Assembly (NCBI GenBank): GCA_008933615.1
Contig: WBUR01000012.1
Location: forward strand, 1-64,000
DNA length: 64,000 bases
DNA from: a bacterium
GTDB lineage: Bacteria; CLD3; SB21
Direction: 5' to 3'
Shown: one piece after another, positions 784-16,319 of the stretch
Layout: every line of letters starts with the position of its first letter
Numbering within the stretch: position 1 is the stretch's first letter
Translations under genes and position numbers: made by a program
The notes under the pieces: model-generated
What the model was told of the DNA's origin: nothing
The model's input: only the letters and a program-made list of their open reading frames with translations
Databases searched by the model: none

Positions 784-2268
784 CTACGGTTTATTTTTTC
801 TGCTCGCGATCATGGCTGTAAATGAACCTGCTCGAAGATCTTCTGCATTGAGTCCCGAGTGCTGAATCTCTTTTTCCGTAAATGCGCCGCATTGAATCCC
901 TCGGTAAAAAAAATTCAATAAACCCTGCCCGCTCGCCGCATCATCGAACATTTGCCCGCTTAAAGAAGCCTGATTGCCCTTTTCGATGGACGATTTCATC
1001 CGCAACGACGCGGCTTCCAGTCCTTCTAAATAGAAATTATACACTGCCGCGTATCGAACGGGCAGATGTCCCGGATGAAGATCCCAGCTTTGATAAAATC
1101 CTTGCGATAAAGACCGTTGTACCTGAACAAAATAATTTTTCCAGACGCCATGCACGGCTTCTCTGTTTTCTTTCATTTGTCGAACTGATAATACTTTGCC
1201 GCTTGCGCGATGCGGCCCTACGGGAATCTGATGGATAGCCCCATCCGAAAGCCGCACACCTGTTCCGGCTAGAGCAACCTGCATGGCTTGGCGCGCAAAA
1301 TCGCATGCCGGGTGATCAAGCGTTTGAAAACGAGATGAAATATTTAATCCGGTGGTATAATCGTACGGCCCGAAATGCGCCGATACACATCGGCCTTCAC
1401 CTGCGGTGACTATATCGGTTAATGGCGATTGACCGTTTGATCCGATAATGACCTGCGGCGATTCGATCATGAATTCCAATTTCAATTTTCCGTCAGGCAG
1501 GCGATGCAGTTGTTCAAATGCTCTCAACAACCGAACTAGAGATTTTATTTGTTCAGACGATACAACCTTGGGGAGCGTCACAACAAAATTTTCAGGTAAG
1601 CGGCCGCCGCTTTTTTCGAAAAGAGTGGTCAGAAAAATATCGAGCGTGCGAATCGCCCGTTTTTTTGATTCTTCTGAAAATGATTTGATTCGAATTCCAA
1701 AAAAAGGCGGTAAAAGATTTTGTTCCATCGCGCTTGCCGTCTCATGGGCTGTGCGCATAGCCTCATGATCTTCTTCCGCGTCGGTGCGATATCCAAATCC
1801 GTCCTCAAAGTCAACGCGGTAGTCTTCTATCGGTTGATGAGTCAATTTCTCGATGATTCGATTGTAAACGGTATTGGCAATCCACGCGTTTTTATTTTTG
1901 CTTTCAGGTAAAGATCCTTCCTTCTTTAATTTTTTTCTAAGTACCTCCGCCTGCTTTTTTGAAGCCGGTAACTTCTTGTTATCCGGCAGACCTACTGCTC
2001 TTGCAAATTCGGCAAAGTTGGCGGCATGAGTATGTATGGCAATTAACGCTAGTTTGCCAAGTTTAGGTATCGTATCCGACTTGAATAAATGCGCGCCGCC
2101 GTAAAACGTGTGAACCGGCTGTCTTTCAGTCTTATCACCGGGATAGGTTTGCATAAATTTTTCATTGACCGATTTTAATGAAACCAAAACCTGCTGTTCC
2201 GTTTCCGATGAAAGAGAACGGTGAAGATTGGTGTCCGCTATGGCTAACTGTGCCGCTATACGACTCAT
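784..2268 (-). CDS. DUF6986-type HpcH/HpaI (citrate-lyase-like) aldolase family protein
   Basis: A 494-residue protein of the DUF6986 family, which I place in the PEP-mutase/citrate-lyase TIM-barrel group. Barrel landmarks are an acidic 'VDFEDGFGYR' strand (about 152-161), 'TLPKV' (231-235), 'EFMIESPQ' (265-272) and 'HFGPYDYT' (298-305), which match metal- and enolate-binding positions of HpcH-type aldolases and malate-synthase relatives. The reaction is not known to me. From memory, members sit beside allantoin/glyoxylate genes in actinobacteria, so handling of a C2/C3 product of purine breakdown is a reasonable guess. It follows the ATCase-like gene closely on the same strand. An AAGG precedes the ATG by 9 bases. 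Confidence 0.7.
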   Translation of the reverse strand: MSRIAAQLAIADTNLHRSLSSETEQQVLVSLKSVNEKFMQTYPGDKTERQPVHTFYGGAHLFKSDTIPKLGKLALIAIHTHAANFAEFARAVGLPDNKKLPASKKQAEVLRKKLKKEGSLPESKNKNAWIANTVYNRIIEKLTHQPIEDYRVDFEDGFGYRTDAEEDHEAMRTAHETASAMEQNLLPPFFGIRIKSFSEESKKRAIRTLDIFLTTLFEKSGGRLPENFVVTLPKVVSSEQIKSLVRLLRAFEQLHRLPDGKLKLEFMIESPQVIIGSNGQSPLTDIVTAGEGRCVSAHFGPYDYTTGLNISSRFQTLDHPACDFARQAMQVALAGTGVRLSDGAIHQIPVGPHRASGKVLSVRQMKENREAVHGVWKNYFVQVQRSLSQGFYQSWDLHPGHLPVRYAAVYNFYLEGLEAASLRMKSSIEKGNQASLSGQMFDDAASGQGLLNFFYRGIQCGAFTEKEIQHSGLNAEDLRAGSFTAMIASRKNKP

Positions 2269-2304: not shown

Positions 2305-3228
2305 TTATTCCATCACCCACGCAAGCAATGCCATGCGAATAATAATTCCATTCTGCGTCTGACGAAAATAGGCGGCTCGCGGGTCATTGTCAACTTCGGG
2401 AGCAATTTCATTTTCACGCGGCAAGGGATGCATGATAATGGCTTGGGGCTGCATTAATTTAAGCGAACCCCCGTCAATAAAATATCGCTTAACGATCTTT
2501 GAATATTCTTCATCGGTGCCCGGAAACCGGTCACGTTCTATTCTGTTTACATAAACAACATCCACTTCCGGAAGAACGGCTCGCAGATCTTCTCCCAACG
2601 TAAACCAAACATGGTTTTCTTCCAGATGAGATAGAATATCTTCTTTCATCTGCATCGGTTTCGGCGCAATAAAATAGAGTTTCACCCTTTCATATTTTCC
2701 GAGCAGATAGGACAGAGAACGCGCAGTTCGGCCATCGGCAAGGTTTCCAACCATGGCAACTTTCAATCCGTCCAGTTTATTCGTTTCCTTATGAATCGTG
2801 TAAAGATCCAATAGGCCTTGCGTCGGGTGTTGCCCTCCTTTTCCGTCTCCAGCGTTAATGACAGGAGCGCTTGAAACTTCGGCTGCTCGTTTCGCCCCGC
2901 CATTTTGATTATGCCGCAGAACGATCACGTCGCAAAAGTCGTCAATCACGCGGACGGTATCTTCCAGCGAATCCGATGGCGTTGACGAAAAAAATTGAGA
3001 AGCGCGTTCCGTAGAAATCACTTTGCCGCCAAGCCGCGCCATGGCGGATTCAAAGGATAATCGTGTGAGTAAACCCGATTCATAGAACAGCGACGCCATG
3101 ATTTTATTTTCATAATCGCGCGTGCCTCCGCGCCGGAGAATCTTTTCCATGTCGCGCGCGCGATCGAACAATTCCACCAGCATGGGCAGAGTGAATTGTT
3201 GTGATTCTATGATGTGCCTCAGTTTCAT
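2305..3228 (-). CDS. Aspartate-carbamoyltransferase-like protein with altered active site
   Basis: 307 residues from the ATG at 3228, chosen because GAGG precedes it and it leaves the carbamate kinase gene intact; an in-frame start at 3282 would overlap arcC. The fold is clearly ATCase-like and resembles plant-type enzymes. Retained residues are R105 in 'IVLRH', H134 in 'QHPTQ', R167 in 'ADGRT', R229, and 'MHPLPR' at 266-271. The carbamoyl-phosphate loop, normally S-T-R-T at 52-55, reads G-L-L-T ('YESGLLTRLSFE'). The 80s loop has lost the K84 equivalent, and Q231 is E231. E. coli numbering is from memory. Its position right after carbamate kinase argues for a catabolic or altered-substrate transcarbamylase, or a pseudo-enzyme partner, rather than pyrimidine synthesis. 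Confidence 0.85.
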   Translation of the reverse strand: MKLRHIIESQQFTLPMLVELFDRARDMEKILRRGGTRDYENKIMASLFYESGLLTRLSFESAMARLGGKVISTERASQFFSSTPSDSLEDTVRVIDDFCDVIVLRHNQNGGAKRAAEVSSAPVINAGDGKGGQHPTQGLLDLYTIHKETNKLDGLKVAMVGNLADGRTARSLSYLLGKYERVKLYFIAPKPMQMKEDILSHLEENHVWFTLGEDLRAVLPEVDVVYVNRIERDRFPGTDEEYSKIVKRYFIDGGSLKLMQPQAIIMHPLPRENEIAPEVDNDPRAAYFRQTQNGIIIRMALLAWVME

Positions 3229-3247: not shown

Positions 3248-4189
3248 TCAAGTACGATAAATATGCGTGCCTGCTTTTCCATTCACGGCGTCACCCAGAA
3301 ATTCGGGTTTTGTAATAATCACTTCCTCGCCGCCACGGGAAAGAAAGTCCACAGCCGCTTCCATTTTCGGACCCATGCTTCCCGGAGGAAATTGCCCGCT
3401 TTCCAAATATTGTTTTGCCTCTGCAAGCGTTATTCTGTCCAAGGCAATCTGATCAGGCTGCTTAAAATTTAAATATACGCGATCGGTATCGGTTGAGATA
3501 ATAAATCTTTTCAATTCCAGTTTTCCTGCAAGCAATGCAGATGCCCTGTCTTTGTCGATCACTGCTTCTATGCCGCTGAAATTTCCCTGTTCCTGTATAA
3601 CGGGTATGCCGCCGCCGCCGACCGCAATAACGATCATCCCGTCATTTACGCAATGTTTGATGGAATCGAGTTCGACAATTTCAATCGGTTTTGGCGAAGG
3701 AACCACTCGACGATATCCTCTGGCGGCATCATCCACAATGTGCCAGCCTAGTTCCTGTTTCCGCATTTCGGCGGTTTTTTGGGAAAGAAACGGGCCGATG
3801 GGTTTTGTCGGAAACTGAAATGCAGGATCGTCTTTTGATACAACGACCTGAGTAAGAATCGTAACGATAGAATGCGCCACCCCCAACGTATTCATTTCGG
3901 TTCGCAATGCGTTTTGTAAAATATACCCGATCTCACCTTGGGTTGAAGCGTCACAGCAATCAAGCGGCAGCGGATAGACTTGAGAAGAGGCCAATTCCGA
4001 ACGGATAAGCTGCGCGCCGACCTGCGGCCCGTTTCCGTGCGTGATGATCAACGAGTGTCCTTGTTTGATGAGAGCCGCGAGATAGCGACAGGTCGTTCTC
4101 GCATTTTCTATTTGCTCGCCGATCAATCCGCTCTGGCCGTGGCGGATAAGTGAATTACCGCCGATGGCTATTAATATGGGTGTGTTCAT
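3248..4189 (-). CDS. arcC: Carbamate kinase
   Basis: 313 residues, the usual family length. It interconverts carbamoyl phosphate plus ADP and ATP plus ammonia and bicarbonate, and in catabolic clusters recovers one ATP per carbamoyl group. Amino-acid-kinase motifs are visible: 'IAIGGNSLI' at the N-terminus, 'THGNGPQVG' (about 50-58), 'AVGGGGIPVI' mid-protein and 'STDTDRVY' towards the C-terminus. It lies between the M20 peptidase gene ygeY and the ATCase-like gene on the same strand. That is the expected place for the energy-harvesting last step after YgeW or a second transcarbamylase. The 225-base spacer upstream shows no gene. Confidence 0.95.
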   Translation of the reverse strand: MNTPILIAIGGNSLIRHGQSGLIGEQIENARTTCRYLAALIKQGHSLIITHGNGPQVGAQLIRSELASSQVYPLPLDCCDASTQGEIGYILQNALRTEMNTLGVAHSIVTILTQVVVSKDDPAFQFPTKPIGPFLSQKTAEMRKQELGWHIVDDAARGYRRVVPSPKPIEIVELDSIKHCVNDGMIVIAVGGGGIPVIQEQGNFSGIEAVIDKDRASALLAGKLELKRFIISTDTDRVYLNFKQPDQIALDRITLAEAKQYLESGQFPPGSMGPKMEAAVDFLSRGGEEVIITKPEFLGDAVNGKAGTHIYRT

Positions 4190-4414: not shown

Positions 4415-5617
4415 TTATCCTTTGACTTCTTTCAGATACATCTTTGGAAATGCCGCATACCACGCCGACGCTTTCACAAGATGTTCCACCGGAATATGTT
4501 CCGTCGCCATGTGCGCATAGATTTCATTTCCAGGCCCGAATCCGATACACGGAATACCGTGCATTCCCATCACCGCAACGCCGTTGGTGCTGAATACCCA
4601 GCGGCTTACTTGCGGTTTTTCACCGAACAATCCTTCAAACGTTTTGACGCCCGTCTTGAGCGCCGGATGCTCTTCAGGAAGAAGCCATGTCGGATAATAT
4701 TTTTTGGTAGGATAGGTTAGGCCTTTCCAACTTGGAACAGCATAATCGAGCACGACAACTTCTGCCTCTGCCGCTTTTACGCTTGGAAGATCCTGAATTT
4801 CCTTCACGGCAGATTCCAGCGTATCCGTTGCAGCCAACCTGCGATCCAAATGAATGGCAGCAGAATCTGCAACCGCGCAAAGCGACGGCGAGGTAGAACG
4901 GAACTCCGCGATCGTCACCGTACCTTTTCCGAGAAACGGTTCTCCTCCGAGGCGTTCGTTCAGTTTTTCAATATCCAACACGATCGGCGCCATTTTATAA
5001 ACAGCATTCACGCCTCGTTCCGGTGCGGAACCGTGGCACGATACGCCCTTGGTGCGAACTTCAATTTCCATTCGTCCGCGATGACCGCGATACACGGCCA
5101 GATTGGTCGGTTCTGTGATCACGACGATCTCGGGACGAATTTTGCCCTCCTTGATAATGTATTGCCAGCAAAGCCCGTCGCAGTCTTCTTCCTGCACGCT
5201 GCCGACGACATACAGCGTATAATCGTCTTCAAGACCCAAATCTTTTATGATTTTCCCGCCGTAAACAATCGATGCGAGCGCGCCTTTCATGTCGCATGCT
5301 CCGCGGCCGTATATGATACCGTCTTTTTCGTCGCCCTTGAACGGATCCACTTTCCAGTTTTCCGGATTACCCACGTCCACGGTATCAACATGCGCGTCGA
5401 GTGCAATAATATGTTTTCCGTGCCCGATGCGCCCGATAATATTTCCCATCGGATCGATCGTTATTTCATCGTAGCGGCATTTTTCCATTTCCGTCTTAAT
5501 GCGGGCGATTACATTGGCTTCTTGTGAACTCATCGATTTGATCGCGATCAGATCCCGGAGAAACCCCGCAACTGCGCGTTCATTCTTTTTCGCTTCTTCA
5601 TAGATTTTCTTTAGCAT
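4415..5617 (-). CDS. ygeY: YgeY-family M20 metallopeptidase/deacylase
   Basis: 400 residues, matching YgeY of the selenium/purine cluster. M20 metal sites are visible: 'LDAHVDTV' with H76 and D78, 'RGACDMKG' with D109, 'VQEEDCDG' with the general base and metal pair E143-E144, and the dimerisation-domain 'SCHGSAPERG' around 193-202. The family hydrolyses amide or carbamoyl bonds; in this cluster it probably trims a ureido or N-acyl group from a 2,3-diaminopropionate-type intermediate, but the exact substrate is not settled. A GAAGGA sequence lies 8 bases before the ATG. Its neighbours are the PLP enzyme upstream and carbamate kinase downstream. Confidence 0.9.
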   Translation of the reverse strand: MLKKIYEEAKKNERAVAGFLRDLIAIKSMSSQEANVIARIKTEMEKCRYDEITIDPMGNIIGRIGHGKHIIALDAHVDTVDVGNPENWKVDPFKGDEKDGIIYGRGACDMKGALASIVYGGKIIKDLGLEDDYTLYVVGSVQEEDCDGLCWQYIIKEGKIRPEIVVITEPTNLAVYRGHRGRMEIEVRTKGVSCHGSAPERGVNAVYKMAPIVLDIEKLNERLGGEPFLGKGTVTIAEFRSTSPSLCAVADSAAIHLDRRLAATDTLESAVKEIQDLPSVKAAEAEVVVLDYAVPSWKGLTYPTKKYYPTWLLPEEHPALKTGVKTFEGLFGEKPQVSRWVFSTNGVAVMGMHGIPCIGFGPGNEIYAHMATEHIPVEHLVKASAWYAAFPKMYLKEVKG

Positions 5618-7459: not shown

Positions 7460-8647
7460 TTACCTTCTCTTGATGTTGTTTTCCAGTAATTGTTTCATTT
7501 TCTCAACCGGATTTTGCATGCGTGTCAAAAACATCATCGCCGCAATGACGAACGGCTTATAACCCGCTTCAGCATACGTCGTAAGACGGTATTTTTCAAA
7601 CACATCTTTTGACACTTCGCCTTCGTCGCAGCTGACGCCGGAAATGTCCGCAGGAAGGCAGTGCATGTACAGCGCTTCGCCTTTTTTTGTTAATTTCATT
7701 CTCGGTTCGTCGCATTCCCAGCTCTTGAATTTGGCATTATTCGCCAGGCATTCTTTTTCAAGTTCCTTCAGCCCGGACTTGTCGTTGTTATTCAGCAGAA
7801 CGGTCCTTCGCTGCATGACATTGAACGGCGCCCATGATTTAGGATATACAATGTCCGCATCTTTGAACGCATCCTCCATCGTGTTGACAATCTCAAACTT
7901 TCCGGCGGACTTTGCCGATTGTTTCTTCGCCTGTTCGATCACGTCGGGAATTAAGCCGTATCCCTCCGGATAGGCAAGTGAAACGTCCATGCCGAAGCGC
8001 GACATTAGCCCGATAATTCCCTGTGGAACGGACAGCGGTTTCCCGTAACTCGGTGAATACGCCCACGTCATGGCAATCTTCTTTCCCCGCAGATTTTCAA
8101 GCGAACCGAAGGTATTCTTTAACTGCATCAGGTCGGCCAGCGCCTGCGTCGGATGATCGATATCGCACTGCAGATTGATAACACTCGGGCGCTGATGAAG
8201 AATCCCATGGTCAAATCCTTCCTGGACAGCATCTCCAAATTCCCGCATATATTTATTTCCTTCGCCGAGAAACATGTCGTCACGAATTCCGATCACTTCC
8301 GCAAGAAATGAGATCATATTCGCCGTTTCACGAACGGTTTCACCGTGAGCGATCTGGGATTTTTCTTCATCCAGTTCGGACAGTCCCAGTCCCAGCGCAT
8401 TGGCAGCCGAGGCGTAACTGAAACGCGTGCGAGTCGAATTATCGCGAAAAATGGAAATAGCAAGCCCGGTATCGAATACTCGCAGCGACTTCCCGGCTTT
8501 ATGCATGTCCTTCAATAATTGCGCGACCGTAAGAACGGCTTTTAATTCCTCTTCCGACCTTTCCCACGTCAAAAGAAAATCTTTACTGAACATATTGGTT
8601 TTATAACCGGACAGTGTGTCGAATAACGTCTGAAATTCTTTTTGCAT
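7460..8647 (-). CDS. ygeW: Knotted carbamoyltransferase YgeW
   Basis: 395 residues, the length of E. coli YgeW. It keeps a complete carbamoyl-phosphate loop, 'STRTR' at 71-75, plus 'DHPTQAL' at 164-170 and 'HCLPAD' at 329-334, so it should be catalytically competent, unlike the second transcarbamylase at 2.3 kb. The family was first called 'unknown transcarbamylase'; in purine clusters it is thought to work in the phosphorolytic direction, turning a ureido group into carbamoyl phosphate. AAGGAAGGA lies 5 bases before the ATG. It is downstream of the selenium-type xanthine dehydrogenase and upstream of the PLP enzyme, the usual order of such clusters. Confidence 0.93.
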   Translation of the reverse strand: MQKEFQTLFDTLSGYKTNMFSKDFLLTWERSEEELKAVLTVAQLLKDMHKAGKSLRVFDTGLAISIFRDNSTRTRFSYASAANALGLGLSELDEEKSQIAHGETVRETANMISFLAEVIGIRDDMFLGEGNKYMREFGDAVQEGFDHGILHQRPSVINLQCDIDHPTQALADLMQLKNTFGSLENLRGKKIAMTWAYSPSYGKPLSVPQGIIGLMSRFGMDVSLAYPEGYGLIPDVIEQAKKQSAKSAGKFEIVNTMEDAFKDADIVYPKSWAPFNVMQRRTVLLNNNDKSGLKELEKECLANNAKFKSWECDEPRMKLTKKGEALYMHCLPADISGVSCDEGEVSKDVFEKYRLTTYAEAGYKPFVIAAMMFLTRMQNPVEKMKQLLENNIKRR

Positions 8648-8952: not shown

Positions 8953-11538
8953 TTATTTGACTATTGCCTTCGCCGCCGGTGAATCTCTCATCGGTAGTTT
9001 GTATCGGCGGATGCCGTCGAATTTATATAAAGCTCCGGCGACCGCTCCGGCAGTGGGAACCAGCCCGATTTCACCGACTCCTTTAGCGCCAAACGGCCCT
9101 TCGGATTCATGTTCTTCAATAAGAATTATTTCCGTTTCAGGCATGTCCTTCGCCCGCAATATTCCGAGGGAACGGAATTTGAATGATTCCGGCACTCCGT
9201 CTTTTAGTTTTAATTCTTCCGTCAGCGCATAACCCAGTCCCATGTGAATGGAGCCTTCCAGTTGTCCCTCAATGAGTTTCTTGTTTATGACTTTACCCAC
9301 ATCATGCGCTGCAACGAATTTTTTCAGTTTACCCTGCTCATCCAGAATACACACCTGCGTCGCGAAGCCGAACGACATATGCGTGATCGGTTTTTTCGTT
9401 TTATCTTCCAGGGCGGTCGTATAGTCGATCACAACTTCTCCGAAATATTTTTTTCCGGCCAATTGCGAAATCGTTTTACCGGCATCTAAATCTTTTTTCA
9501 TTTCCTGTCCGGCCTTTATCACCGCGCGCCCACCGAGTACCGTTGCGCGCGAAGCCGTCGTCATGCCGCAAGGCGTCGGTTCCGTGGTATCGATATTCAC
9601 GCGAACTTTTCTCGGGTCGATCCCCGTTACTTCGCTGAAAAACTGAATCATTACCGTACAGAATCCCTGTCCCATTTCTGTAAACCCGGTGTTGATCGTA
9701 ATGGTTTCATCGGGATGAACCGTAACTACCGCCTGGCCATATTCCGCCATGCCGTTGCCAATGCCGACATTTTTGATCCCGCATCCGATGCCGGCGTATT
9801 TAGATGAATAATAAATATCTTTCACGGCCAGCAACGTTTTCTTAATGCCGACTGCGCGTTCAAATACCTGACCCGTACAAAAAGTGTCGCCGACATCGAC
9901 CACATTGCGCCAGCGCATCTCCCACCCGTCGATACCGACCTTTTCCGCGAGAATATCCATCATTCCTTCCATGGCAAAGGAAGCCTGGTTGGCGCCGAAT
10001 CCACGCATAGCGCCGCACGGTAGATTATTCGTGTACACCGCCAGCGCTTCGACATCCGAATGTAAAATATTGTAAGGGCCGCATGCATGCCCCGCAGCCC
10101 GCTCCAAAACTTTGGTCCCAACGGACGCGTATGCGCCTTTATCGCCGATCATCCGCGCACGAACGGCCGTTAACTTGCCATCGGCATCGCATCCAACGGT
10201 GTAAGTCATTTTGATCGGATGGCGCTTGGGATGAAGCCGAATGCTTTCTTCGCGCGTCAACGTAGCTTTCACCGGCGTTTTCGTCAGTATGGCCATCAGC
10301 GCAACTTGTCCCTGGATACTGATATCTTCTTTTCCGCCGAAAGCGCCGCCGTTGGTGATCAGCGTGACATTTACTTTTTCTTCCGGTAAATTTAGAAATG
10401 ATGCAATTTGTTTTCTATCATCAAATACGCCCTGCCCCTGGCTGAGCGCTTCTACAATCCCATCTTTGAGATACGCAATGGAACTTTCCGGCTCAAGAAA
10501 GGCGTGCTCGATCATCTGCGTTTCAAAAGTTTTCGTTTCCACGAAAGCAGATGCCTTCAATGCAGAATCTACATCGCCGCGTCTTATGACCGAGTCAGAT
10601 AATAGATTTGCGTGATCTGCATGAACCTGCACCGCGCCGTGTTTTAACGCTTCTTCGGGATCAAAAATACCCGGTAACATTTCATACTTAAGCTTTATCT
10701 GTTCAACGCCTTTGCGCGCCGTTCGCTCGTTGCTCGCAACAACCGCGGCGAGAATATCGCCGATGCAATGCGTAATCTCTCCTTCGGCAATAAATAACGG
10801 CCAATCTTTGTAAATGGTTCCCTGCTTGCGCACTCCGGTTACATCCTTTGCTGTTACTATACGCGCAACTCCGGCAAGGCGCTCTGCCGCCGAAGTGTCG
10901 ATTTTTTCAACTTTGATCCGCGGGTGAGGTGAAAAAAGGAATGCGGCATACTGCATTCCGGGCATCGTCATATCGTCAATATACGGCCGCTCGCCCAAGG
11001 CAAACTTCTCGACGTCCATGCGCGGAAGACTTGATCCGATTTTCCCGGAGTAATCCGCTTCAGGTAACGGCTGTCCATTTAATGCTTTTGCCGCAAGGTC
11101 GATCGCATCAACTATCTTCACAAATCCCGTGCATCGGCAAATATGATTATTCAGCGCAACGGCGATCTCTTCGCGCGAGGGCGTTGGATTTTTCTGAATA
11201 AGGCTTTTCGCCCGCACAACAATTCCGGGAGTACAAAAACCGCATTGTGATCCGGCAGAAAGCGTGAACGCCTTGGCAAAAATGTCCCGCTCCTGTTCAG
11301 TAAATCCTTCCAAGGTAAGAACGCTCTTCCCCTGAACATTTTTCGCCGGAACCGCGCATGAAGATACCGCTTTGCCGTCCACGATCACCGTACAGCAGCC
11401 GCAAGATCCTTGCGGCGCACAGCCGTTCTTAGGCGAAATCAAACCCGCCTGTTCGCGCAAGACATCCATCAAGGAAATGCCGTCGTCGAGCGTTGCTTCA
11501 AATTCTTTTTCGTTTAATGTAAATTTCATAGCATTCAT
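8953..11538 (-). CDS. Selenium-dependent-type xanthine dehydrogenase, single chain (2Fe-2S + Mo domain)
   Basis: 861 residues combining a 2Fe-2S domain with a molybdopterin domain and no FAD domain, the layout and length of 'selenium-dependent xanthine dehydrogenase' and of E. coli XdhD relatives. Cluster I ligands are C40, C46, C49 and C61; cluster II ligands are C99, C102, C134 and C136. The Mo domain shows 'GGAFGGKED', 'AMRGFGANQ', 'TEMGQGF' and the C-terminal 'GAKGVGEIGL', whose Glu is the likely base. The reading frame has no in-frame TGA, so selenium would enter as a labile cofactor sulfur replacement, not selenocysteine. It should oxidise purines and pass electrons to a partner outside this chain. 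It sits between ygfK and ygeW. Confidence 0.9.
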   Translation of the reverse strand: MNAMKFTLNEKEFEATLDDGISLMDVLREQAGLISPKNGCAPQGSCGCCTVIVDGKAVSSCAVPAKNVQGKSVLTLEGFTEQERDIFAKAFTLSAGSQCGFCTPGIVVRAKSLIQKNPTPSREEIAVALNNHICRCTGFVKIVDAIDLAAKALNGQPLPEADYSGKIGSSLPRMDVEKFALGERPYIDDMTMPGMQYAAFLFSPHPRIKVEKIDTSAAERLAGVARIVTAKDVTGVRKQGTIYKDWPLFIAEGEITHCIGDILAAVVASNERTARKGVEQIKLKYEMLPGIFDPEEALKHGAVQVHADHANLLSDSVIRRGDVDSALKASAFVETKTFETQMIEHAFLEPESSIAYLKDGIVEALSQGQGVFDDRKQIASFLNLPEEKVNVTLITNGGAFGGKEDISIQGQVALMAILTKTPVKATLTREESIRLHPKRHPIKMTYTVGCDADGKLTAVRARMIGDKGAYASVGTKVLERAAGHACGPYNILHSDVEALAVYTNNLPCGAMRGFGANQASFAMEGMMDILAEKVGIDGWEMRWRNVVDVGDTFCTGQVFERAVGIKKTLLAVKDIYYSSKYAGIGCGIKNVGIGNGMAEYGQAVVTVHPDETITINTGFTEMGQGFCTVMIQFFSEVTGIDPRKVRVNIDTTEPTPCGMTTASRATVLGGRAVIKAGQEMKKDLDAGKTISQLAGKKYFGEVVIDYTTALEDKTKKPITHMSFGFATQVCILDEQGKLKKFVAAHDVGKVINKKLIEGQLEGSIHMGLGYALTEELKLKDGVPESFKFRSLGILRAKDMPETEIILIEEHESEGPFGAKGVGEIGLVPTAGAVAGALYKFDGIRRYKLPMRDSPAAKAIVK

Positions 11539-11645: not shown

Positions 11646-13607
11646 CTATCCTGCATTCACAAAATGAACACGGTCTGTATTCAACATTCCAATCAATAAC
11701 GTTTTCATCACAAAATAGTATCTCAAATCGATGACCGAATTGACCGAACCAGAGGCGTCGAGCACGTCGTTCGTTTCATAATCCAGACTCACCAGCGCCG
11801 AATGATTCCTAAAAATCGTTTGGCGGCTATTGCGGTCACGATGTAATTCAAATTCCTGATCTTTAAACCGTCCGAAAAGAATTACTTTTGTTTTGTCGGA
11901 TTGCAAAACAAAACCGCTGTACGTAGGCCATTTTTTGTAGGCTTCCAAGGAACCGAAAAATCTAGGCTTTTCAATATAAGGGCCGCCGTCTTCAGGGCAA
12001 AACACGTCGCAATTGCCGCATTCATTGCACGCATCCGCATAATTTCCGATCTGGTGCTTTTCTTTTATCGCGAACGATCCGCCGGCGATCTTCTTCCAGC
12101 CTTGCGCACTAATTTCGATATGATTATAGTCAACTTCAATCGGTTCGATCTCAAAATAAAAATTGGCGTCGTTCGGACAGACCGGAATACATTTATCACA
12201 ACTGATGCAATCAAATAAATGTAAACTGCTGCCGATCTTTTTTGGTAATTTATGATTTGCAGAAAAATGATACCGTGGATTCGATATACTTTTTTCCAAT
12301 AACAGCCCTGTGTTGTGAAGAACGGAAGATGGCCTGGTGATTTCCGTACAGCCGGATTGTTTTGCTGTCAAAACTATGAATTCGTCAACGGACTTCGCGC
12401 CAAGTGATTTCATTGCTTTCTCAAGATTCGTCAAATAATTCGGCAATCTTCCGTATCCTCCAGGCCGCAGCAGATCCGTGCAGGCCGTTACCGGAACAAG
12501 TCCTATCGATACGCAATCCGCAAAATTATTCGCGTCAACTCCGGCTGAAAAGGAGATCGGGAAATCGGCGCCAAATTCTTTTCGCCAGTCATTGACCAGC
12601 GAAAGATGCAGGACGTGGAGCGGCTGGCCCGAAAGATACTGAACTTTGTCCTTCAGGAATTTTCCCTGATTCAGGACTTCCAGCGTATTGCCGAATTTCA
12701 CACCCACAGTTTTTCCGTTTTTCTTACCGATATTCTGCAGCCGTTTCACTACGGCAACGGCATCTTTGAATTGGATATTCAGTTCATACGCTTTTGGATT
12801 CACGGAAACATTCGTGTAACCGAGTTTTTCATGCAGTAAATGTTCAAGGCGGGCCTGGCCGAGCATCGGAGGGTTCATCTTGATAACGACGTGAAATCCC
12901 ATGTCGCCGAGCAGAAATTCACAGATACGCTCGATCTCATCGGCCGGCGTTCCGTGAAACGTTGACAATGTGATGCTGTCCGATATCTTTTTCCGGAATG
13001 GCAGGTCGCGGTATTGCTTGAACTCATCCGGAATTTCATTTCGAAATTCCTCAATAAGAACTGACGCATCTTTCATTCCGTTAAGCCAAGAACGAATCTG
13101 AGGTGACTGGATTCCGGCTAGGTCGTAGCCGACGCTCACATCGAAGATGGTATTAAATTGCGATGAACGGTATTTCGAATCCGGCGCTTCTAAGAATAAC
13201 CAGTGTTTTAAAATATCGACCATCATGACCGCCTTGACATATTCTCTCGCAGATTCATCAAGGCGCAATTCCTGCGACCATTCCGTATTGTAGCCGATCG
13301 TCGCCATATCGATGCACGGGCGCGTGATGTCAAGTTGGTCTTTGATCTGAACGGTTTTTAATTCGATAATTCTTGAACCGGCCAACCATGCAAGAGCGAT
13401 ATTCTGAGTGAGTTGAGTGTGGGGCCCGGCGGCGGGGCCGACGGGATTGGCGGCTGGATTTCCGCACGATGTTACCGCGAGATTTTCATCGGCCGTCGGA
13501 GAGTAAAATTTCCGCAACGGCAGATCGAAGATCGTTTGGGCCTTCGTGTATTCGTAATACATTCTCCGCAAAAGCGTATTGAATGGAATGGGTACGAGTT
13601 CTGCCAT
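11646..13607 (-). CDS. YgfK-like iron-sulfur oxidoreductase lacking the GltD-like flavin module
   Basis: 653 residues, against about 1,030 for E. coli YgfK. The N-terminal dihydroorotate-dehydrogenase-like barrel (about 1-430) matches YgfK closely, including 'NPVGPAAGPHTQL', 'IELKTVQI', 'NTEWSQEL' and 'LLRPGGYGRL'. The C-terminal part has two 4Fe-4S motifs: C467, C470, C473, C477 ('CISCDKCIPVCP') and C527, C530, C533, C537 ('CNECGNCDVFCP'). The roughly 380-residue FAD/NAD(P) GltD-like segment that should sit between them is missing cleanly, with no frameshift. Electrons must therefore come from or go to another protein, perhaps the adjacent Mo hydroxylase. GAGGAT lies 8 bases before the ATG. 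Substrate is unproven; the family is required in gene sets for anaerobic urate use. Confidence 0.85.
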   Translation of the reverse strand: MAELVPIPFNTLLRRMYYEYTKAQTIFDLPLRKFYSPTADENLAVTSCGNPAANPVGPAAGPHTQLTQNIALAWLAGSRIIELKTVQIKDQLDITRPCIDMATIGYNTEWSQELRLDESAREYVKAVMMVDILKHWLFLEAPDSKYRSSQFNTIFDVSVGYDLAGIQSPQIRSWLNGMKDASVLIEEFRNEIPDEFKQYRDLPFRKKISDSITLSTFHGTPADEIERICEFLLGDMGFHVVIKMNPPMLGQARLEHLLHEKLGYTNVSVNPKAYELNIQFKDAVAVVKRLQNIGKKNGKTVGVKFGNTLEVLNQGKFLKDKVQYLSGQPLHVLHLSLVNDWRKEFGADFPISFSAGVDANNFADCVSIGLVPVTACTDLLRPGGYGRLPNYLTNLEKAMKSLGAKSVDEFIVLTAKQSGCTEITRPSSVLHNTGLLLEKSISNPRYHFSANHKLPKKIGSSLHLFDCISCDKCIPVCPNDANFYFEIEPIEVDYNHIEISAQGWKKIAGGSFAIKEKHQIGNYADACNECGNCDVFCPEDGGPYIEKPRFFGSLEAYKKWPTYSGFVLQSDKTKVILFGRFKDQEFELHRDRNSRQTIFRNHSALVSLDYETNDVLDASGSVNSVIDLRYYFVMKTLLIGMLNTDRVHFVNAG

Positions 13608-13632: not shown

Positions 13633-14940
13633 TCATGGGACCGTCTCCATCATTTTGATCCACATTTTTTTTGATTTTTGAGCGGCCGTTGAATAGATGC
13701 TTTCGAGATCGATGCCCGGGATCGTACGGTTTTTCATAACCCATTTCCCTCCAACCATTACGGACTCGATGTTTGCCGAACGCATTCCGAATAAATAATG
13801 CCCGAAGATGTTTTCCTGCGACATAGGCGTCGGCGCTACGTAATCCGATACAATAAGGTCGGCATTGGAATTCTTAGCCAGAGTTCCAAACGGCGAACCG
13901 AAAATCTCCGAAATACAGCGCTGTCCGCCGGAAATAAGTTGGGCTAAATCAATCGGCTGTTTTTGTAGTGAATCTTGACGTTTGAAAAACGCGATTTTCG
14001 CTTCTTCGAGCATATCCGAAGGAAAACCGTCCGTCCCGATCATTCCTCGGTTCTTAAATTGGTGAATCGGCGCAACGCCTACTTTATTATTCATATTCGA
14101 ACGAGGATTGTTCGCAAGCCAAGCTTGAGACTTATTGAGCTTAGTATAATCCTTTTGTGAAAGATGAATGCAGTGGGCAAGAATAGATTTTTTTGTAATC
14201 ATATTCTTTCGGGAAAGCCTGTCAATGATACTGCATCCGTATTTCTTTTTTGCGTCGGCCACGTCGCACAGATCTTCCGCAACGTGAATGTGAACGCCTG
14301 TTTTGTACGTCTCCGCTAGTTCGGCGCAAAGCGACAGCGATTCATCATTCAGCGTAAATGAAGCGTGTGCGCCGACAAGTCCGCGGAAATGTGAATTTTT
14401 GCCGTTTGCATTTATAAAATTTTCGTTCTCCGAAATGCCTTCGTCACGCTGTTTCTTGCCGCCGCGGTCAGTTACTTCATAGCATAACACGCCGCGCAGT
14501 CCAACCTTCGCCATCGCTTCTTTAATAATGTCCAACGAACCCTTGATCGCATTCGGCGACGCGTGGTGATCGATCATGGCGGTTGTTCCGCACTGAACTG
14601 CCTCAATCGCGCCAACCAGCGCGCTGTAATAGATCGTTTCTTCATCCAGCGCACGGTCCAATTTCCACCAGATTTTTTTTAAGACCTCTAGAAAATTCTT
14701 AGGAGGCGTCTTCGGCATCGGCATACCGCGGGAAAGTGAAGAATACAAGTGCGTGTGGGCATTTACCATTCCCGGTAAGACGATCTTTCCACGCAGGTCA
14801 ATAACATCTTCGCCCGGATGCGGCAAGAGATTTTTTCCTTTTTCTAAAATCAAACCGTTATCGATTCGCAGGTCGATCATTTCTATAGAACCCGGAAAAA
14901 AGGTAACCGCCGTAGTGTTTTTTAAAAGTGTTTTTGTCAC
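13633..14940 (-). CDS. ssnA: SsnA-family amidohydrolase/aminohydrolase
   Basis: 435 residues with a GTG start. It belongs to the TRZ/ATZ-guanine-deaminase type of amidohydrolase. Metal and catalytic residues visible are H62 and H64 in 'NAHTHLYSS', H219 and E222 in 'HIHVAED', H256 in 'LAHCIHLS', and D304 in 'GTDGFPSD'. The 'LANNPRSNMNNKVG' strand (275-288) is typical of SsnA. The protein should open or deaminate a purine-derived ring or amidine in the cytoplasm, next to YgfK as in enteric clusters. No dihydropyrimidinase is seen nearby, so SsnA is the only cyclic-amide hydrolase candidate in the cluster. Confidence 0.9.
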   Translation of the reverse strand: MTKTLLKNTTAVTFFPGSIEMIDLRIDNGLILEKGKNLLPHPGEDVIDLRGKIVLPGMVNAHTHLYSSLSRGMPMPKTPPKNFLEVLKKIWWKLDRALDEETIYYSALVGAIEAVQCGTTAMIDHHASPNAIKGSLDIIKEAMAKVGLRGVLCYEVTDRGGKKQRDEGISENENFINANGKNSHFRGLVGAHASFTLNDESLSLCAELAETYKTGVHIHVAEDLCDVADAKKKYGCSIIDRLSRKNMITKKSILAHCIHLSQKDYTKLNKSQAWLANNPRSNMNNKVGVAPIHQFKNRGMIGTDGFPSDMLEEAKIAFFKRQDSLQKQPIDLAQLISGGQRCISEIFGSPFGTLAKNSNADLIVSDYVAPTPMSQENIFGHYLFGMRSANIESVMVGGKWVMKNRTIPGIDLESIYSTAAQKSKKMWIKMMETVP

Positions 14941-15035: not shown

Positions 15036-16319
15036 TTATTTTATTCCACGTGATGAAAGAACCGTCGTCAGCGCCTCGATCGTTGGTCGCAGCGTAATCG
15101 GCTCCCCGGCCGCTTGTTTTGCAGATTGAATATCTTTGAGCCCGTTTCCGGTTACCATAACTAATGCAGTTTCATTCGGTTTTATAATTTTCTTTTCCAA
15201 CGCACGCTTTAATCCGGCTGTGGAGGTGACGCCGGCCGGTTCGCCAAAAACTCCTCCGAGTCGAGCTGTAGATTTCATTGCTTCAAGAATCTCATCATCG
15301 GAAACGGTGATCATATCCCCGCGCGACAGTTTGATCTGCTGAATGGCTCTGCGCCAGTTGCGCGGAGTTCCCACGGCTATACTGTCCGCAATCGTATTGG
15401 TTTCAGTAGGAACAAGATCGTTGCCGGATATAAATGCATCTACGATCGCCCGCGCACCTTCTGCCTGAACCCCCAAGAGACGCGGAACGCGGTCGATAAA
15501 TCCAAGACGTTTCATCTCCTGCAGTCCTTTACCGATTCCTCCGATGGTACATCCATCACCAACCGAAACTACCACCCAATCCGGCAGATCATCAATGCAT
15601 TGTTCGGCTATTTCTAATCCTGCGGTTTTCTTCCCTTCAACTAAAAATGGATTCGTTCCGCTGTTTCGATTATACCAGCCAAACTTCTCACATCCTGCAC
15701 GGCAAAGATCGAACGCGTTTTCATACGACCCTTCAACTTTTAAAACCGTTGCTCCAAAAATAAGAAGCTGGGTCACTTTCGGTTCAGGCGCGCGCTGCGG
15801 AACAAAGATAAAACTTTTCAAGCCGACCGCGGCAGAAAGCCCGGCAAGCGACGACGCGGCATTGCCCGTGGATGCGCAGGCGATGGTATCGAATCCAAAT
15901 TCGATTGCTTTTAACACGCCGACCGAACTGGCGCGATCTTTAAACGAACTGGTCGGGTTTCGTCCATCGTCTTTCACCAATAATTTTTTTATTCCAAGAT
16001 GCGAAGCAAGTCGCGGGGCATCATACACCGGCGTCCAGCCTACATACAAATGCGGTAATGGAATCTGGGCCGGAATAGGAAGCAGTTCTTTATAGCGCCA
16101 ATGATCAAGTTTTCGCGACTGAATAACGGCCGGCGTAAAATATTTTTTAATTGAATCGTAATCGTATTGTATATCGAGGATTCCGTCAATCCCGCACTGC
16201 GGGCAGGTTTGAACGTTCCCATACTTGGATGCCGATCCGCATTTGAGACATCTTTGCCCAGTCACAAACGGAGGCGCGGTAAATTTACTTTCTTTGGAAT
16301 CCAAATGATCTTTATTCAT
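15036..16319 (-). CDS. Threonine-synthase-like PLP enzyme with N-terminal zinc ribbon
   Basis: 427 residues. An N-terminal zinc ribbon uses C24, C27, C39 and C42 ('CLKCG...CPQCG'); the PLP lysine is K127 in 'TSSFKDRA', followed by 'STGNAASSLAGL' and the phosphate cup 'SVGDGCTIGGIGKG'. This is the archaeal/plant-type threonine synthase architecture. The gene lies inside the purine cluster, between ssnA and uridine kinase, with no homoserine kinase or dehydrogenase nearby. It may be a lyase on a diamino- or hydroxyamino-acid intermediate, or simply thrC. No good ribosome-binding site precedes the ATG. Confidence 0.8.
   Translation of the reverse strand: MNKDHLDSKESKFTAPPFVTGQRCLKCGSASKYGNVQTCPQCGIDGILDIQYDYDSIKKYFTPAVIQSRKLDHWRYKELLPIPAQIPLPHLYVGWTPVYDAPRLASHLGIKKLLVKDDGRNPTSSFKDRASSVGVLKAIEFGFDTIACASTGNAASSLAGLSAAVGLKSFIFVPQRAPEPKVTQLLIFGATVLKVEGSYENAFDLCRAGCEKFGWYNRNSGTNPFLVEGKKTAGLEIAEQCIDDLPDWVVVSVGDGCTIGGIGKGLQEMKRLGFIDRVPRLLGVQAEGARAIVDAFISGNDLVPTETNTIADSIAVGTPRNWRRAIQQIKLSRGDMITVSDDEILEAMKSTARLGGVFGEPAGVTSTAGLKRALEKKIIKPNETALVMVTGNGLKDIQSAKQAAGEPITLRPTIEALTTVLSSRGIK

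Follow-up and report, generated by a model that had tools for sequence, protein, structure and literature searches.

Gene content of the urate-degradation clusters

The window, by which we mean the whole 64,000-nucleotide stretch of DNA that was analysed, carries a gene for an ATC-like protein with the motif GLLT at residues 52–55 (E. coli PyrB numbering), which we refer to as the GLLT protein. The gene ends a run in the order SsnA-YgfK-Xdh(Se)-YgeW-YgeX-YgeY-YqeA, and the features are as follows:

2305..3228, minus strand: GLLT ATC-like protein, 307 aa (OTCace_N and OTCace, Pfam PF02729/PF00185; translation and motif table)
3248..4189, minus strand: YqeA-type carbamate kinase (TIGR00746/NF009007 above cut-off; the kinase tree mirrors the ATC tree)
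4415..5617, minus strand: YgeY, which hydrolyses the second ureido group in the pathway as published (NF009555/TIGR03526 above cut-off; PMC12507026)
5719..7167, minus strand: YgeX-type diaminopropionate ammonia-lyase, a PLP enzyme (cluster position and PLP-fold matches)
7460..8647, minus strand: YgeW knotted transcarbamylase with STRT and HPTQ intact (NF005538/TIGR03316 above cut-off)
8953..11538, minus strand: selenium-dependent xanthine dehydrogenase type, in the XdhD role of urate to yanthine (TIGR03311 above cut-off)
11646..13607, minus strand: YgfK-like yanthine reductase, short form (TIGR03315 is the best match, below cut-off, over profile positions 4–403 of 1012)
13633..14940, minus strand: SsnA aminohydrolase, a urate-cluster marker (TIGR03314/NF005540 above cut-off)

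The biochemistry of reductive (yanthine) urate degradation was published in 2025 (PMC12507026, PMC12990295), and SsnA, XdhD, YgfK, YgeW, YgeX, YgeY and YqeA from its gene set are all encoded in the window; HyuA, the one pathway step missing from the window, is found on contig C8 of the same genome. The YqeA gene lies 19 bases upstream of the GLLT gene and is its co-inherited partner. Four further genomes contain a related gene with either GLLT or STLT, and all five genes are positioned directly after the carbamate kinase YqeA in a reductive urate-degradation cluster. The order YgeW-YgeX-YgeY-YqeA-ATC recurs in L007 and L008, and YgeY-YqeA-ATC in L005 and L006; YgeX orthologues are present in L007, L008 and L147. 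YgeW belongs to the same cluster and superfamily as the GLLT protein (Li et al. 2025, PMC12507026), but is knotted, has STRT and is a working transcarbamylase, whereas the GLLT protein lacks STRT. An Rfam search of the first 25 kb of the window gave no match.

The published pathway makes two ureido acids, with one ureido group taken by YgeW through phosphorolysis and the other hydrolysed by YgeY, and a second ATC-like gene is not named in that publication (Li et al. 2025, PMC12507026). An earlier note on this DNA had proposed that two ureido groups need two transcarbamylases. This does not hold, since YgeY is present in the window and in all of these clusters, and the L141 urate cluster has YgeW and YgeY with no YqeA or ATC-like gene; together with the published pathway, this rules out a second transcarbamylase being required by the chemistry. 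As there are urate clusters that lack an ATC-like gene (L141; E. coli), the gene is accessory.

Other genes at these loci also vary. The YgfK encoded at 11646–13607 in the window is short (653 aa) and seems to lack the FAD part of its E. coli counterpart, and PydA-like proteins take the place of YgfK in some urate clusters (L196, 1560–4058; L204, 5914–8424; L218, 9168–11762) with dihydroorotate-dehydrogenase, Fe-S and pyridine-nucleotide domains, either fused (~830 aa) or split in two genes. A threonine-synthase-like PLP enzyme is encoded directly upstream of SsnA (window 15036–16319); across the class sampled, such a gene adjoins SsnA in the majority of urate clusters, but it is not among the published-pathway enzymes. 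Directly downstream of the GLLT gene is a DUF6986 protein gene (window 784–2268), present in the window's genus only and evolving faster than its neighbours (dN/dS 0.13–0.19). The YgeW gene of the Acidobacteria MAG L008 (5010–6235) is broken into two overlapping frames, reflecting a frameshift or an assembly error. A divergent YgeW-like transcarbamylase (L147, 2562–3563; 333 aa, 43% to YgeW) precedes a carbamate kinase and an STRT-type ATC-like gene, and short YgeW-like proteins resembling it are also found in urate clusters L195, L196 and L217.

Active-site residues of the GLLT protein

The reading frame of the GLLT gene (complement of 2305–3228) is intact with 307 codons, and an alternative start at 3282 would give a protein of 325 aa. 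Profile, Pfam (PF02729 and PF00185) and fold searches all place the protein in the two-domain ATCase/OTCase fold superfamily, the fold search returning ATCase again with Arabidopsis ATCase structures as the nearest solved relatives. The score against the TIGR00670 'aspartate carbamoyltransferase' profile is 286 bits, exceeding the equivalog cut-off of 237, such that automatic annotation would say PyrB.

For numbering we used an E. coli PyrB sequence whose length and key residues all agree with expectation. Relative to this, the window protein has the substitutions S52G, T53L, R54L, S80F, K84P and Q231E, with G85 and E86 of the 80s loop also altered, and retains T55, R105, H134, Q137, R167, R229 and H265-P-L-P. 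The mapping agrees with the earlier note, which had described G-L-L-T at 52–55, an absent 80s-loop lysine and Glu at position 231, with R105, H134, R167, R229 and HPLP retained. The SxRT carbamoyl-phosphate motif of PyrB (S52–T55) is therefore GLLT in four genomes and STLT in the fifth. The RxQ, K84 and S80 features of PyrB are likewise changed (R229 in three of the five, E or D at residue 231, P at 84 and F at 80), and HPTQ and R105 are found in all five, the residues common to the whole set being T55, R105, H134, Q137 and R167. HPLP in the window protein corresponds to HPLS, NPLS and SPLP in its relatives, and residue loss goes further in L007 and L008 (R229S/Q, H265N/S, and P268S in L007). 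AlphaFold2 models, built with only 13 sequences, gave a pLDDT of 67 for the window protein and 71 for an STRT control, with residues 35–101 too poor for interpretation of the pocket.

The housekeeping PyrB is encoded elsewhere

The genome encodes four transcarbamylases: a canonical PyrB on contig C6, an ArcB that adjoins an ArcC on contig C51, YgeW, and the GLLT protein; CarB is also present, in two pieces. The second, normal pyrB for which the earlier note had suggested looking is thus the one on C6, which has STRT, K84, R229/Q231 (RxQ) and HPGP, and which rules out the GLLT protein as the sole pyrB of the genome. A canonical PyrB is found in all five GLLT/STLT genomes, with the other genomes giving a strong second PyrB match (404–413 bits compared with 240–255). 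The closest solved relative, Arabidopsis PYRB (6ypo/6ys6), is a plant/Pyrococcus-type ATCase that resembles the window protein in fold, length and ~45% identity and shares HPTQ, R105, R167, R229 and HPLP, but S52, T53, R54, S80, K84 and Q231 are replaced in the window protein, which is not the cell's pyrimidine enzyme. Although the TIGR00670 equivalog cut-off is passed, the loss of catalytic residues and the presence of a canonical PyrB elsewhere in every one of the five genomes make it scarcely credible that the GLLT protein is the organism's ordinary aspartate transcarbamylase (pyrB).

Distribution of the GLLT motif

GLLT occurs in the window genome, in two species of its genus (95% and 91% identity) and in the Bacteroidota MAG L007 (78%), and the 'Acidobacteria' MAG L008 (68% identity) has S-T-L-T, in which R54 is lost and S52 and T53 are retained. 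The window codons are GGT TTA CTC ACA; the two sister species use GGT TTG CTC/CTT ACA, and L007 uses GGG TTG TTG ACT. The recurrence of the same motif in four genomes with synonymous codon differences rules out a frameshift, an assembly error or a base-calling artefact, consistent with the earlier note's observation that there is no frameshift.

A survey of homologues and their gene neighbours, proposed in that note, shows the GLLT form to be confined to the urate cluster; nor is it common among ATCases, a possibility also raised there, as R54 is absent from 5 of 79 aligned ATC-type homologues, these being the GLLT/STLT genes only, and phosphate-site loss is seen in none of the other 74. No GLLT/STLT genes beyond these five were found in a scan of 84,980 genomes by exact query peptides and of several hundred genomes by protein, although divergent GLLT forms may be missed by the exact peptide seeds of the larger scan. 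A tBLASTn search of plasmids gave matches that are all below 60% identity, the best of them annotated as an ordinary pyrB. The GLLT/STLT set is therefore five sequences, three from one genus, and the genomes compared are draft metagenome assemblies in which gene absence is weak evidence.

Descent from an OTC-carbamate kinase-ATC module

Of 294 genomes sampled from the class of L007, a group that also holds Ignavibacteria MAGs, 80 encode a homologue with 56–78% identity. Where the neighbourhood is readable, and with the exception of L007's own gene, almost all of these are located directly behind genes for OTC and carbamate kinase (CK). This OTC-CK-ATC-like module is widespread in Ignavibacteria-type genomes (L009, 3378–6181; L103–L138; and others), usually with a normal PyrB elsewhere: 33 of 34 triad genomes have at least two pyrB-type matches, although the second is a contig-edge fragment in G074 and G226, and G062 has one match. 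The modules are often accompanied by ornithine aminotransferase and by a 444-aa protein (L009, 7558–8892) that has no Pfam or NCBIfam match and is kept beside the module in many genomes at 63–83% identity.

The triad ATC-like proteins of these genomes (56–66% identity) resemble the window protein in lying beside a carbamate kinase, in having lost K84 and in having an acidic residue 231, but all 55 keep STRT and S80, and their partner is OTC rather than YgeW and the urate genes. S52, T53, R54, T55, S80, R105, H134, R167 and HPLP are invariant in the 55 sampled, whereas just six keep K84 and 50 have an acidic residue (Asp or Glu) at position 231. The loss of K84 and Q231E, which the earlier note had regarded as peculiarities of this protein, are thus older traits general in an STRT-bearing sister family, and only GLLT is special to the urate-linked branch.

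In a maximum-likelihood ATC tree, the six urate-cluster genes are monophyletic (100/98) and nested in the CK-linked family (99/98), with the branching order STRT (L147), STLT (L008/L146), and GLLT (L007 and the window's genus); the branch lengths of the GLLT lineage are not unusual. The tree of the carbamate kinases unites these six genomes in a single clade (SH-aLRT 98) that falls among the triad kinases. The GLLT protein is therefore a member of the carbamate-kinase-linked ATC-like family, both by its monophyly with the triad proteins and by its adjacency to carbamate kinase, and the matching of the two trees indicates that the kinase-ATC pair was taken over as a unit, with the phosphate site being dismantled only afterwards. 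We conclude that the GLLT protein descends, with its neighbouring carbamate kinase, from an OTC-carbamate kinase-ATC module, and that its phosphate-binding residues were lost stepwise inside the urate cluster, starting with R54, followed by S52 and T53 and accompanied by S80 and the 80s loop.

Selection and the focus of change

The GLLT gene is under strong purifying selection, with dN/dS at 0.06 for one sister species and 0.07 for the other. YqeA is higher at 0.10 and 0.14, and ArcB and PyrB are close to the GLLT gene at 0.02–0.05 (PyrB 0.02–0.04, slightly below the GLLT gene). The 55 triad proteins have 132 columns conserved at 90% or more; the window protein departs from these at nine, every one of them in the active-site segments, which hold 31 of the 132 (P=7.9e-7); the segments were picked from the known ATCase site before counting, but with GLLT already known, so that P overstates the surprise somewhat. 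The STRT relative L147 has four conserved-column differences, none of them in the active-site segments, and within the triad family 18 of the 109 differences of this kind fall in these segments, fewer than expected. Change focused on the active site together with continued constraint argues that the site has been rebuilt or switched off, and not that it is decaying.

Interpretation

In transcarbamylases, SxRT binds the phosphate, HPxQ the carbamyl moiety and R167 the alpha-carboxylate (PMC4581275), and the title of PDB entry 1acm calls R54 'critical for catalysis'. With S52, T53, R54, S80 and K84 lost together there is no plausible phosphate site, and the protein is very unlikely to carry out carbamoyl-phosphate chemistry, whether forward or reverse. 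The retained T55, R105, H134, Q137 and R167 would correspond to a half-site for a ureido group and a carboxylate. With the phosphate half gone and this half kept, the reading that we favour, at a probability of roughly 0.6, is that the GLLT protein is a pseudo-transcarbamylase, unable to use carbamoyl phosphate at a useful rate and kept as a partner of YqeA and/or YgeW in their module, or as a ureido-acid binder. It is probably a non-catalytic (or differently working) partner protein in the urate cluster; a non-catalytic partner was one of several options in the earlier note, and moves to the front because the phosphate site is gone and the gene is under strong purifying selection. YgeW makes carbamoyl phosphate from 2,3-diureidopropionate and YqeA converts it to ATP, and the GLLT protein would serve this recovery module as a scaffold for YqeA/YgeW; physical complexes of carbamate kinase and carbamoyltransferase have a precedent in Pyrococcus furiosus (PMC6022934). 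Alternatively, it may bind a ureido amino acid and so sense pathway intermediates.

The conservation of R105, H134, Q137 and R167 in all five proteins would be needless for a purely structural partner, which points to a bound ligand or to residual chemistry, and the variation of R229, H265 and P268 among the five makes a single shared acceptor ligand not obvious. A carbamoyl-phosphate-independent ureido-acid binder or enzyme acting with the carbamate kinase, whether as a sensor, a scaffold or a new catalyst in anaerobic urate degradation, is a possibility that we hold only tentatively, and we know of no such function in the transcarbamylase superfamily. The most interesting rival is a hydrolytic enzyme for a ureido acid, with albizziin or 2,3-diureidopropionate as possible substrates, in which T55, R105, H134 and Q137 would polarise the ureido carbonyl, R167 would hold the carboxylate, and water would attack instead of phosphate. 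The carbamoyl and carboxylate residues are exactly those kept in all five proteins, the phosphate residues have become small or greasy, the gene is under strong purifying selection, and the host pathway makes two ureido acids (PMC12507026); however, YgeY is in every such cluster and already performs ureido hydrolysis, a new acid/base or metal ligand is not evident, and R229 and H265 vary within the five, so that we consider a hydrolase unlikely. To our knowledge there is no hydrolase among members of the transcarbamylase fold.

Weaker is an active second transcarbamylase whose donor or acceptor has changed, such as one that phosphorolyses the second ureido group to give a second carbamoyl phosphate for YqeA. 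The ureidoglycine transcarbamylase Rxyl_2847 also adjoins a carbamate kinase (PMC4016543), and such activity is quite conceivable for L147, the nearest relative with STRT in a urate cluster, but SxRT, which every transcarbamylase family retains, even the 'pseudo-ATCases' that have new activities (PMC4016543 Table 1, PMC4581275), is gone here, along with S80 and K84. The reverse-direction enzyme or second transcarbamylase of the earlier note thus appears improbable, with S52, T53, R54, S80 and K84 all replaced. An allosteric or regulatory role independent of YqeA and YgeW, with nucleotides or pathway ligands as effectors and transcription or PyrB as the target, might be suggested by the nearest solved homologue, Arabidopsis ATCase, having been solved with UMP bound, but the conserved linkage is to carbamate kinase and not to pyr genes or regulators, and we think such a role doubtful. 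Finally, catalytic-residue loss goes further in L007 and L008, as might be expected of a decaying duplicate without function; this is very improbable given a dN/dS of ~0.06, reading frames that are intact in all five genomes, which span three lineages, synonymous codon differences within GLLT, and conserved-column changes that are confined to the active site.

The pseudo-transcarbamylase that we favour is to be distinguished from the 'pseudo-ATCases' of Barba et al. (2013), which are ATCase paralogues encoded next to carbamate kinase in clusters for purine degradation. One of them, Rxyl_2847, is a proven ureidoglycine transcarbamylase (UGTCase), and the tested subgroup uses carbamoyl phosphate/phosphate (PMC4016543). 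The GLLT protein is similar in its position beside carbamate kinase, in the purine-degradation setting and in its altered RxQ. However, all three published subgroups keep STRT, and as a class they retain STRT and HPTQ with HPLP and RxQ changed, whereas the window protein lacks STRT and has HPLP; because STRT is absent despite the same setting, we do not file the GLLT protein under the pseudo-ATCases, from which it is set apart by the motifs as published.

SxRT has been described as characteristic of all known transcarbamylases (PMC4581275), and the GLLT protein is a selected, cluster-linked ATCase homologue without it, for which misannotation as pyrB is to be expected since it passes the standard equivalog cut-off. 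The triad ATC-like family from which it arose is a candidate for the catabolic ATCase, which is counted as unproven in the family review, or for a new ureido-acid transcarbamylase. The preserved series of STRT, STLT and GLLT shows how the site was taken apart, and the GLLT lineage is a test case for the change from a metabolic enzyme to a pseudoenzyme.
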